From assembly GCF_031198435.1 (NCBI RefSeq), contig NZ_CP133548.1, forward strand, positions 1,054,001 through 1,118,000: a DNA stretch of 64,000 nucleotides. Direction: 5' to 3'. The position numbers and the translations under genes are program-made. Below the pieces are notes generated by a model. It was given only the letters and a program-made list of their open reading frames with translations. It made no database searches and was not told the origin of the DNA. Below are positions 48,854-51,857 of the stretch, one piece after another; within the stretch, counting starts at the first letter, position 1; each line of letters starts with the position of its first letter. This stretch comes from Pleionea litopenaei (GTDB taxonomy: Bacteria > Pseudomonadota > Gammaproteobacteria > Enterobacterales > Kangiellaceae).

Positions 48854-49000
48854 TATAGAAAACAATAGGGCGCAGTTTAGGCATTCTGTTGGTTTGGCGC
48901 AACACTGATGGTTTAGTGCAAAAATGATGCACCTTGAAATACACCCTTCCCAAAACATTCAAGGTTACCCATTATTCGGGAAGTCTCTATTTGGAATACT

Positions 49001-49599
49001 CTTCATTCGGGGCACTCACTCGTCGGGATTATTCGTCCCATCCTTGGGACTCACCCTTCCTTCGTCAGGGCCAACGTATTCACGTTGTTCAAAAGTGCTC
49101 CCGGCACTTTTGTCGAACCTAAGGGTTCAAATCTTATCCGCTCTCGCAAATAAAAAAGCCCCTTTATAAGGGGCTTTATTCTATTCATTCTAACCTTACG
49201 CTAACTTTCCGTTCTTCCTTCAGTGCATCTCACCAATCGGGATTATTCGTCCCATCCATGGGACTCACCCTTCCTTCGTCAGGGCCAACGTATTCACGTT
49301 GTTCAAAAGTGCTCCCGGCACTTTTGTCGAACCTAAGGGTTCAAATCTTATCCGCTCTCGCAAATAAAAAAGCCCCTTTATAAGGGGCTTTTTTCTATTC
49401 ATTCTAACCTTACGCTAACTTTCCGTTCTTCCTTCAGTGCATCTCACCAATCGGGATTATTCGTCCCATCCATGGGACTCACCCTTCCTTCGTCAGGGCC
49501 AACGTATTCACGTTGTTCAAAAGTGCTCCCGGCACTTTTGTCGAACCTAAGGGTTCAAATCTTATCCGCTCTCGCAAATAAAAAAGCCCCTTTATAAGG
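49001..49599. repeat. tRNA-Ser-associated 214-bp repeats, left block (units 1-3)
   Basis: Units begin (at CGGGATTATTCG) at 49024, 49238 and 49452, 214 bp apart. Each carries, in order: a GGGA/TCCC arm pair, hairpin CAACGT/ACGTTG, hairpin CAAAAGTGC/GCACTTTTG, hairpin GAACC/GGTTC and a terminator-like AAAAAAGCCCC/GGGGCTTT. Unit 1 has the variant front TTCGGGGCACTCACTCGT; units 2-3 have CATCTCACC, which equals the first bases of tRNA-Ser in reverse. Unit 3 is interrupted in its terminator by the IS. Confidence 0.96.
49590..49599. repeat. Left target-site duplication of the IS4-type element
   Basis: CTTTATAAGG, repeated at 51031-51040. Without the element the two halves restore a normal repeat-unit terminator. 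Confidence 0.93.
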
Positions 49600-49608
49600 C
49601 AACGTAGT

Positions 49609-50946
49609 TCACTTAAGCGGAGCTGCCTTGCGATTAACAGGATATCGGGTCTTTGATATTTTTACCGCCCTAGGCCGATTAGGCTTAGGGCGTTTGTCTA
49701 TAAAAAGGATAGACAAGTCGCCACGCAGACTTTTCAGACGCTTTGGCGTATTACCCGGAGACACCGCTTTACTCATCACTTTTAGTTGACTCGCAATGAA
49801 CTGACAAGCGTACTTAAAACTGATTTCGTTGGGCATTCGACCATGCTCTACTGCTGCTTGGCTGGCTTCTCGTCTCACCAAGTTATAACCAAGTAATAGC
49901 CCCCATAACTCTTGATAGACAAGCTCGACCGTCTTACTTCTCAACACCAAAGCATTGTGTTGCATCGAACTTTTTATGTCTCGATACCCCAATTCAATTT
50001 CCCATCTTTCGTGATAAAGCTCGGCGACGGATTTTGCATCGTAGTCTTCCCTAGACAGGGACGTAAACACGGTTTTCTGCTTACCCGCAACTTGATAGGT
50101 GACTGCTCTGACTTTCCATTTCTCAGGTAGGTTAGGATTCTTCTTGCGTGCCTGTGGAGAGACTTTCATTTCAACCAGCATGTCATCGCTCTCTTTCTCA
50201 TCCAGAAGTGTGTATTTCACCCCTTTCTTTGCAGGTAACAACCAATGTCTGTTCGAGCCACTATTTTGGAGAGAAAGCAGTAAGTCTGCGCCATAAAACC
50301 CCTTATCTAATAAGGTTACAGAGTTATCAGGTAGGGAGTTAATAAAGGGCATAGCAAGGGCAATTTCTCCACGACGATATGGGCTTATGGCTGCATCCAC
50401 AATAACATGGGAGCGAACATTCATCATGGTGACCACCCTTAATACCGGATGAGGTGTCTGCCTGTCACTAGATGTATTACCTGAACCAAAATGTTCTCTT
50501 AGTTCCGGTGTATCAGCGGTCCGAAAAAGAGCACCATCAACAGCAAAGACTTGTAAACCTTGCCAAGTATCTTCAGGGTAACGTTCTAGACCCCAAGTGT
50601 GACCACATTGCCTAAACAGCCATTCCGGAGCGGCTTTACCAAGACGTTGTCTTGCTTGCGTTAGAGCACTTTTTGCTAACAACTCCTCATCAGCCAGTCC
50701 TTCTGCACAGACATTCATTCGCCGGGCTACTTCTGCAATAGGCTCATTGCGGAAGAACGCCATCCCGACAATGAGCCAAAGAACCATATCACTAGGTAAA
50801 CGACGTCGGCGAATAGTCGCTTTATCGGAAAGTGTTGCCGCTTTGGCAATCCACTCATCAGGAATATGCTCAGAGAAAGTGGTTAACTGAGCGACATCAA
50901 CGGGACTTTCTTCAAGAAAGTCGGCAAAACAGTTTTGGATAGACAT
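49609..50946 (-). CDS. IS4-family transposase
   Basis: A 445-residue DDE transposase. The acidic residues are in VFAVDGALFRT, TLLDKGFYGADLL and the IS4 signature YHERWEIELGYRDIK (the Y-x2-R-x3-E-x6-K pattern). The frame is intact and ends 9 bp inside the left tip. It cuts and pastes the element using the flanking inverted repeats. A hairpin with a T-run sits just before its start codon. Confidence 0.95.
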   Translation of the reverse strand: MSIQNCFADFLEESPVDVAQLTTFSEHIPDEWIAKAATLSDKATIRRRRLPSDMVLWLIVGMAFFRNEPIAEVARRMNVCAEGLADEELLAKSALTQARQRLGKAAPEWLFRQCGHTWGLERYPEDTWQGLQVFAVDGALFRTADTPELREHFGSGNTSSDRQTPHPVLRVVTMMNVRSHVIVDAAISPYRRGEIALAMPFINSLPDNSVTLLDKGFYGADLLLSLQNSGSNRHWLLPAKKGVKYTLLDEKESDDMLVEMKVSPQARKKNPNLPEKWKVRAVTYQVAGKQKTVFTSLSREDYDAKSVAELYHERWEIELGYRDIKSSMQHNALVLRSKTVELVYQELWGLLLGYNLVRREASQAAVEHGRMPNEISFKYACQFIASQLKVMSKAVSPGNTPKRLKSLRGDLSILFIDKRPKPNRPRAVKISKTRYPVNRKAAPLK

Positions 50947-50948
50947 AA

Positions 50949-50981
50949 AAAAATCGGAAACCTATAAACAGGTTTCCGATT
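50949..50981 (-). terminator. Stem-loop guarding the transposase start
   Basis: A perfect 12-bp stem (AATCGGAAACCT / AGGTTTCCGATT, loop of 6) is followed on the minus strand by a T7 run and then by the transposase ATG. It should stop read-through from outside promoters. A second hairpin GGATCGG/CCGATCC lies at 50996-51013. Confidence 0.8.
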
Positions 50982-51030
50982 GTCTCTCATCAGAAGGATC
51001 GGTCAACCGATCCTTATCTGATCTACATTG

Positions 51031-51690
51031 CTTTATAAGGGGCTTTTTTCTATTCATTCTAACCTTACGCTAACTTTCCGTTCTTCCTTCAGTGCATCTC
51101 ACCAATCGGGATTATTCGTCCCATCCATGGGACTCACCCTTCCTTCGTCAGGGCCAACGTATTCACGTTGTTCAAAAGTGCTCCCGGCACTTTTGTCGAA
51201 CCTAAGGGTTCAAATCTTATCCGCTCTCGCAAATAAAAAAGCCCCTTAATAAGGGGCTTTATTTATTCATTCTAACCTAACGCTGACTTCCCGTTCTTCA
51301 TTCGGGGCACTCACTCGTCGGGATTATTCGTCCCATCCTTGGGACTCACCCTTCCTTCGTCAGGGCCAACGTATTCACGTTGTTCAAAAGTGCTCCCGGC
51401 ACTTTTGTCGAACCTAAGGGTTCAAATCTTATCCGCTCTCGCAAATAAAAAAGCCCCTTTATAAGGGGCTTTATTCTATTCATTCTAATCTTACGCTAAC
51501 TTTCCGTTCTTCCTTCAGTGCATCTCACCAATCGGGATTATTCGTCCCATCCATGGGACTCACCCTTCCTTCGTCAGGGCCAACGTATTCACGTTGTTCA
51601 AAAGTGCTCCCGGCACTTTTGTCGAACCTAAGGGTTCAAATCTTATCCGCTCTCGCAAATAAAAAAGCCCCTTGATAAGGGGCTTTATTT
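51031..51690. repeat. tRNA-Ser-associated 214-bp repeats, right block (units 4-6)
   Basis: Unit starts are 51107, 51319 and 51533 (212-214 bp). With the IS and one target copy removed, unit 3 to unit 4 is also exactly 214 bp. Unit 5 has the variant front seen in unit 1; units 4 and 6 carry CATCTCACC. The block ends in a terminator directly downstream of tRNA-Ser. Near identity of units suggests ongoing gene conversion or recent amplification. Confidence 0.96.
51664..51690 (-). terminator. Terminator directly after tRNA-Ser
   Basis: AAAGCCCCTTATCAAGGGGCTTT with an A-run on the far side forms a T-run on the minus strand. It is the sixth copy of the repeat-unit terminator and probably the main stop for the tRNA transcript. 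Confidence 0.8.
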
Positions 51691-51693
51691 ATT

Positions 51694-51784
51694 TGGCGGT
51701 GAGAGAGGGATTCGAACCCTCGATACGCTATTAACGTATACACGCTTTCCAGGCGTGCGCCTTCAACCACTCGGCCATCTCACC
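51694..51784 (-). tRNA. tRNA-Ser (anticodon GGA)
   Basis: Read on the minus strand: acceptor GGTGAGA pairs with TCTCACC, the D arm is GGCCGAGTGGTTGAAGGC, and the anticodon stem CACGC/GCGTG holds loop CTGGAAA (GGA). A long variable arm and GGGTTCGAATCCC T-arm follow; G73 and an encoded CCA end it at 51694. It decodes UCC and UCU. The class II variable arm confirms serine. Confidence 0.97.
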
Positions 51785-51828: not shown

Positions 51829-51857
51829 ACTATAGGCAATTACAGACCTTTTGACAA
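51829..51857 (-). promoter_or_regulatory. Sigma-70 promoter of tRNA-Ser
   Basis: On the minus strand, TTGTCA (51852-51857), a 17-bp spacer and TATAGT (51829-51834), followed by a GC-rich stretch (GGCCCTCGCGCGG) typical of stringently controlled stable RNA promoters. The leader is about 38 bases. Confidence 0.75.

Follow-up and report, generated by a model that had tools for sequence, protein, structure and literature searches.

Six tandem homologues of the E. coli tRNA-linked repeats behind a tRNA-Ser gene of Pleionea litopenaei, with GGA loops that may bind CsrA

We found that the six near-identical repeats behind the tRNA-Ser(GGA) gene of Pleionea litopenaei are homologues of the tRNA-linked repeats (TLRs) of E. 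coli. The array, located in a window of 64,000 nucleotides (the whole stretch of DNA that was analysed, from contig NZ_CP133548.1), is a real observation; its kinship with the TLRs and its nature as a structured RNA are strongly supported, and its function is what we infer. Taken as a whole, the reading that the six TLR homologues are expressed by read-through and act as growth-coupled ligands of CsrA is one towards which we lean, if slightly. The TLR family is known so far only from Enterobacteriales and is present in Rfam only as RtT; no report of TLRs from other groups was found in a literature search that covered journals without subscription. To our knowledge, the TLRs, described in 1978, have no accepted function yet.

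All six units are located on the minus strand directly 3' of the tRNA-Ser(GGA) gene (51694..51784, minus strand; ARAGORN; Rfam RF00005, 63 bits), i.e., on the same strand as the tRNA. The units have a length of 212-214 bp and lie where the first-pass annotation had placed them, at 49024, 49238, 49452, 51107, 51319, and 51533, with start spacings of 214, 214, 1655, 212, and 214; their near-identity, which it had also claimed, amounts to 98-100% in the structured cores and 94-100% over whole units. No further copy of the exact unit sequence was found in the 4.42-Mb genome. Unit 6, the nearest to the tRNA, starts 45 nt past the tRNA 3' end. In transcript order, each unit consists of a terminator hairpin, a 118-nt structured core, the hexamer AATCCC, and a variable tail. 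Hence, the chain of hairpins with a terminator-like stem described previously is right in its fold and wrong in its order, because on the minus strand the terminator hairpin opens the unit instead of closing it. Both strands of a unit fold far better than shuffled sequences (z -5.6 and -5.7), in line with the folding claimed for them.

The six-helix core, P1-H2-H3-H4-H5-H6, occupies 51531..51648 in unit 6 (also seen in the MFE fold), 51317..51434 in unit 5, 51105..51222 in unit 4, 49450..49567 in unit 3, 49236..49353 in unit 2, and 49022..49139 in unit 1 at the distal end of the array, all on the minus strand. The covariance model R2, built from sequences of the window family only and from none of E. 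coli, scores units 1 and 5 at 96.6 bits and the other four at 95.4 bits, values to be read with the window sequences being among its seeds. The terminator scan located the first intrinsic terminator at 51664..51686, just 3' of the tRNA end, and the terminator hairpins of unit 5 (51450..51472), unit 4 (51238..51260), unit 2 (49366..49394, also by repeat comparison), and unit 1 (49155..49177), again on the minus strand; the region contains 22 terminator-like sites against 3.2 expected. On the 5' side of the tRNA, the promoter-like TTGTCA-17-TATAGT (51829..51857, minus strand; 10/12 in the consensus scan) is a candidate for driving the tRNA and the read-through, although promoter-like sites overall are not above chance. 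Two antisense ORFs (..LPSSGPTYSRCSKVLPALLSNLRVQILSALANKKAP) of 81 and 73 aa cross the units on the plus strand (48924-49169 and 51028-51249) and are probably spurious; we did not take them as genes because they share their sequence with the structured RNA, whose stems change by compensation and not codon by codon. Database entries for similar short hypothetical proteins may stem from TLRs that were translated by mistake.

The parallel with the repeats downstream of the E. coli tyrT gene (rtT), drawn in the first-pass annotation, proved to be correct and to reflect homology, as R2 without E. coli seeds finds rtT, rrB, and rrF. The E. coli loci were searched singly, and the RrB/RrF type gave the best-scoring matches, with rrF at 66.5 bits and rrB at 64.4 bits (E 1e-20), followed by four rtT-type units at 53-57 bits; the matches in the lysT and argQ regions were weak (15-22 bits) and were not relied on. 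Both the fold and a sequence core are therefore shared with the E. coli TLRs, and we regard the homology of the array units with them as practically certain. The spacer between tyrT and tyrV and the three rtT units 3' of tyrV follow the same plan as the relatives of the window. The E. coli TLRs themselves were reportedly described by Egan & Landy 1978 and Rudd 1999. The Rfam model of RtT (RF00391) did not match the array, even with E values of up to 5 allowed; it scores E. coli rtT at 133-138 bits, did not detect rrB, and, among the loci tested, found only the rtT-type units of E. coli. At permissive thresholds, Rfam yielded only chance matches below the gathering cutoffs, such as Trp_leader on a terminator.

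The architecture common to the loci is a terminator, the 5' strand of P1, H2 (GAACC..GGUUC), GAC, H3, H4, H5 (CCC..GGG), and H6, after which GAGUAAUCC leads into a copy of the 3' tail of the host tRNA and then into the next terminator. At the loci of relatives, H3 has the consensus AAAAUUGY-CNGGA-RCAAUUUU and H6 has an AGGA loop. The structured RNA suspected earlier is strongly supported by covariation across related genomes. Among 123 distinct sequences, all 33 of the 33 pairs of the six-helix fold covary; 93.2% of the cells are paired, compared with 71.2% after shuffling and 33-47% with the partner column slid, the double changes number 836 against 240, and the covariation score is 0.532 against 0.160 for shuffles, all in an alignment fitted to the model, which inflates covariation somewhat. 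A largely independent set, drawn from further orders and one further class, shows 95.2% paired cells and a score of 0.490 against 0.153. P1 alone scores 0.414 against 0.156; its 3' strand is the copy of the tRNA tail, and its 5' strand tracks the tail of whichever tRNA stands upstream. Behind the same tRNA-Val in a congener, the H3 stem changed from ACUGU/ACAGU to ACGGU/ACCGU. In addition, G-U pairs outnumber A-C pairs by 72:36, as expected for an RNA of the minus strand, a bias that comes in part from the covariance-model alignment. A palindrome acting only as DNA is disfavoured by the covariation of P1 with the tail and by the excess of G-U over A-C, and the element has very probably been selected as RNA.

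The conserved part of this RNA lies in two of its loops. With the sequences clustered at 85% identity and the expectation taken from shuffled loop letters, GGA is present in the H3 loop of 65 of the 78 sequences (15 expected) and in the H6 loop of 61 (20 expected), and is not enriched in the loops of H2 (4/78) or H5 (5/78); the class-level matches have it in 22/28 (H3) and 24/28 (H6). These GGA loops are kept while the H3 and H6 stems change freely, and the commonest H6 loop, CAGGAUG, contains the ARGGA core of the CsrA type. All six units in the window carry GGA in H3 (CGGGA) and in H6 (AUGGAU, or AAGGAU in units 1 and 5), as a CsrA-binding RNA should; in unit 6, the two hairpins are AAAAGUGC-CGGGA-GCACUUUU (51600..51620, minus strand) and GUCCC-AUGGAU-GGGAC (51544..51559, minus strand), both read from the sequence and the alignment. 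A bulk enrichment of GGA in the array was not observed (39 against 42 in shuffles), and only the placement in loops is unusual.

E. coli rtT has no GGA loops, and E. coli RrB has the same two as the window. RrB, the TLR studied experimentally, is a read-through transcript that binds CsrA directly in vitro with an apparent Kd of ~100 nM, and the binding is lost when three loop GGAs are changed (PMC8144298). The mechanism that we favour for the window elements is a growth-coupled RNA that would bind CsrA, as RrB does with loops of this kind. The genome has one csrA; a genome-wide search gave no match to CsrB (RF00018) and none to RsmZ (RF00166) above the cutoff of 44, with one 22-bit match outside the array. 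Among 314 high-quality genomes of the class, cross-tabulated by hand, CsrA was found in 132 of the 138 with TLRs and in 148 of the 176 without (Fisher P 0.0009), which is the predicted direction but is confounded by genome reduction and incomplete MAGs and may reflect genome size. A loss of GGA in genomes lacking CsrA was not seen; 11/13 and 10/13 keep it, most of these genomes being incomplete MAGs. One genome that is rated 100% complete (G412; TLR at G412:C45:4227-4335, L238) has both GGA loops and no CsrA Pfam match. Because the loops are kept in genomes where CsrA was not found, including this one, and because the association is confounded, the proposal that CsrA is the ligand of the window elements falls, in our analysis, a little short of probable. 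As a separate observation, TLRs stand less than ~1 kb 3' of csrA at G725:C22, G532:C23, G625:C16, G698:C13, G645:C2, and G648:C57, probably because csrA lies beside a tRNA-Ser/tRNA-Arg cluster; such a position would let CsrA meet TLR RNA in its own operon.

The same loops, with the same read-through logic, might instead be read by another partner, such as the anti-Shine-Dalgarno end of 16S rRNA, Hfq partners, or a different GGA-reading protein. The AGGA motif does resemble a Shine-Dalgarno sequence, RrB is also enriched on Hfq (PMC8144298), the deletion of RrA/B/F in E. coli has only modest effects (PMC8144298) with only mild CsrA phenotypes, and the loops of G412 are conserved where CsrA was not found. 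Against this, the direct binding of RrB to CsrA depends on the loop GGAs, and no other partner is supported in the present analysis, so that we consider a non-CsrA partner rather unlikely.

TLRs of the window type occur behind stable RNA genes far beyond P. litopenaei. A first DNA search in related genomes returned mostly short matches, chiefly of H3 (~30-45 nt), located ~70 nt behind tRNA-Val, -Glu, -Ser, -Tyr, and tmRNA. The covariance model R1, built from 14 seeds, found the elements in the own genome behind tRNA-Ser(GGA), tRNA-Ser(TGA), tRNA-Val, and 5S rRNA and in an array that has been displaced, with a weak match behind tRNA-Arg; it found them in 34 of the 40 genomes of the family and in 160 of the 395 of the order. 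R2 extended them to 163 of the 369 class genomes (~44%; 128 of the 272 genera) and to 92 of the 398 phylum genomes; these extend to a family from another class (f225), whose loci (L178, L180, and L181) again show the tRNA linkage. First units typically start 20-70 nt past the end of the tRNA, tmRNA, or 5S gene (20-68 nt past tRNA ends), the upstream RNAs being tRNA-Ser, Val, Glu, Tyr, Arg, Lys, Gln, Asp, Pro, tmRNA, and 5S. Tandem arrays, here with six units, occur elsewhere with three units behind E. coli tyrV and seven in L096. A search of the named genomes with the unbiased core pattern gave 48 matches in 43 contigs. For 43 of these matches, the preceding sequence was long enough to score: a tRNA or tmRNA precedes 29 of them on the same strand at no more than 100 nt, another 4 are later units or are found 259 nt past a tRNA, and 4 stand at a copy of a tRNA tail without an ARAGORN call. 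By hand count, 37/43 are thus linked to a tRNA or tmRNA; the class search added 19 loci, and each of them closely follows a tRNA. Copies at random sites, named at the outset as evidence against a tRNA-linked element, were therefore mostly not what we found, although some genomes do carry dispersed copies: mosaic copies of this kind were seen in G036, G063, and G002, and family f15 has them in one of its genera. In these mosaics (L135-L143 in G036, G063, and G002; L043), TLR cores form inverted pairs in intergenic regions away from tRNAs, and a single Kangiella genome has as many as 41 model matches. The mosaics resemble MITE-type elements into which TLR cores have been taken up.

Such inverted pairs, together with the occurrence behind many different RNAs and a tail duplication resembling the duplication of att sites, would suit selfish or mobile DNA, in which small non-autonomous palindromes insert at the 3' ends of stable RNA genes, the tail copy is att-like, and no host function exists. 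We consider this quite improbable. Insertion alone does not explain why the P1 5' strand and the tail covary across tRNA types; the elements are retained vertically, with H3 changing in a compensatory manner behind the tRNA-Val shared with the congener; GGA is conserved in two loops only; and no integrase is present in the neighbourhood of the array.

TLRs usually end in a copy of the 3' tail of the upstream gene, up to 20 nt long behind tRNAs. In the window, this copy is broken: only AATCCC remains, 6 of 18-19 nt, and the remainder is replaced, in unit 6 by a segment with TTGGTGAGATG (tail at 51477..51536, minus strand); since the 18-19-nt tail is lacking, we call the array a variant TLR. The tails at tRNA-Ser(TGA), tRNA-Val, and 5S in the same genome are interrupted as well, and those of congeners at tRNA-Ser(TGA) and tRNA-Val are intact or nearly so, e.g., a 20-nt copy at tRNA-Ser(TGA) of P. 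mediterranea (L050); E. coli also has the full tail. The inserts in the own-genome tails (window 51477-51536; L039, L041, and L040) are unrelated, mostly AT-rich, and begin a few bases past AATCC. At the 5S rRNA-linked TLRs L040, L233, and L076, the tail is a copy of the 5S 3' end (28 nt in L076), and the tail rule thus holds for 5S rRNA outside Enterobacteriaceae. A role in transcription or processing only, in which extra terminators and 3'-end processing signals shield or insulate the tRNA gene without any trans-acting RNA, is the least probable reading by our estimate: each unit does have a strong intrinsic terminator and Stenum et al. proposed the tail copy as an RNase E signal, but the H3/H6 covariation and the GGA loops are left unexplained, and with its tail copy interrupted the array has nonetheless kept its fold, so the processing role proposed for E. 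coli cannot apply unchanged here.

The first-pass annotation had instead pointed to the 5' end of the tRNA. The array has the motif CATCTCACC at exactly four positions (49226, 49440, 51095, and 51521) and the tRNA has it once, as claimed, and the longer 11-nt match TTGGTGAGATG is rarer than chance (0.3% of shuffles); units 1 and 5 lack it, and the match is a single event multiplied by duplication, peripheral and not a feature of the TLR family. The idea of a tRNA decoy acting through the 5' end was abandoned, as the motif is local to four window units and is not conserved in other TLRs, the tRNA-derived part of which is the 3' tail.

The 1655-nt step in the array is due to an insertion sequence (IS) of 1431 bp (49600..51030, minus strand; from sequence and flanks), which splits the terminator between units 3 and 4. 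The IS contains a transposase ORF of 445 aa (49609-50946, minus strand; ORF list) and is flanked by the 10-bp target-site duplication CTTTATAAGG (left 49590..49599, right 51031-51040; flank comparison). Removal of the IS and one copy of the duplication restores the 214-nt spacing, and the array was therefore once one continuous block. Units are near-identical within one locus while loci differ, and the same tRNA-Ser locus of Pleionea mediterranea (G002) carries three diverged TLR units, two of them decaying, in agreement with the suspected tandem amplification beside the tRNA, locus by locus. The neighbours shared at that locus, named by sequence recognition, are PilT (88.8% identical), a glutaredoxin-like protein (64%), and a SprT-like protein (38%). 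The array was thus inherited with the locus, with changes in copy number; duplication between near-identical units produced these changes, and the IS split the array later. The IS itself has three identical copies in the genome (the others at G000:C1:3696464-3697895 and 3718605-3720036). Its targets are two terminator hairpins linked to TLRs, namely CTTTATAAGG in the window and CACCTTTCGGTG behind tmRNA, and a site within CCGCTATAGTGCGG; together, they suggest a preference for palindromic targets. At G000:C1:3696464-3720036 (L229-L231, L237), two IS copies in direct orientation have hybrid flanks, suggesting that a circle of ~21 kb integrated by IS-IS recombination and separated the tmRNA gene (ssrA) from its own TLR array, now ~22 kb away.

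Beyond the observed homology, fold, position, GGA conservation, and array history, we propose how the array would be transcribed, processed, and bound by CsrA and what its physiological role may be. On the tRNA strand, each unit presents a terminator and then the conserved six-helix RNA; its closing helix, P1, takes the beginning of the tRNA 3'-tail copy as its pairing partner and encloses H2 to H6. The units would be transcribed only when polymerase reads through the terminator behind tRNA-Ser, and their level should therefore follow the transcription of stable RNA, i.e., the growth rate. The GGA loops of H3 and H6 would most likely bind CsrA, as those of RrB do in vitro, and each unit would act as a weak, short-lived, growth-coupled CsrA ligand. 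It counts against this mechanism that every unit has its own terminator, so that long transcripts of the array should be rare. The broader proposal, that one RNA family on tRNA, tmRNA, and 5S genes across Gammaproteobacteria and at least one further class is a general growth-rate-coupled CsrA ligand with its number of modules tuned by tandem duplication, is tentative.

The finding of a single covarying fold, with GGA conserved in two of its loops, behind stable RNAs of many kinds turns a curiosity of E. coli into a widespread RNA family, and our covariance model is supplied where Rfam has only the narrow RtT entry. If CsrA binds TLRs across species, post-transcriptional control might be coupled to how fast tRNA and rRNA are made. 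Compared with known systems, the E. coli TLRs of the rtT type (RF00391) stand, like the window elements, behind a tRNA on the same strand in tandem units with the order P1-H2-H4-H5-H6, and the GAG-UAAUCC junction into the tRNA tail is common to E. coli TLRs and the window. However, H3 is a long hairpin with a GGA loop in the window and short in rtT, and the tail is AATCCC of an 18-19-nt copy in the window and a full copy in E. coli TLRs. RrA/RrB/RrF of E. coli share with the window the H3 loop CGGGA, the H6 GGA loop at the same positions, and the dual-terminator arrangement, but they are single copies behind 5S rRNA with an intact tail, whereas the window has six copies behind tRNA-Ser. CsrB/CsrC/RsmY/RsmZ (RF00018, RF00166) likewise present multiple GGA hairpin loops; in contrast to them, the window elements are linked to stable RNA genes and are built on one fixed six-helix module.
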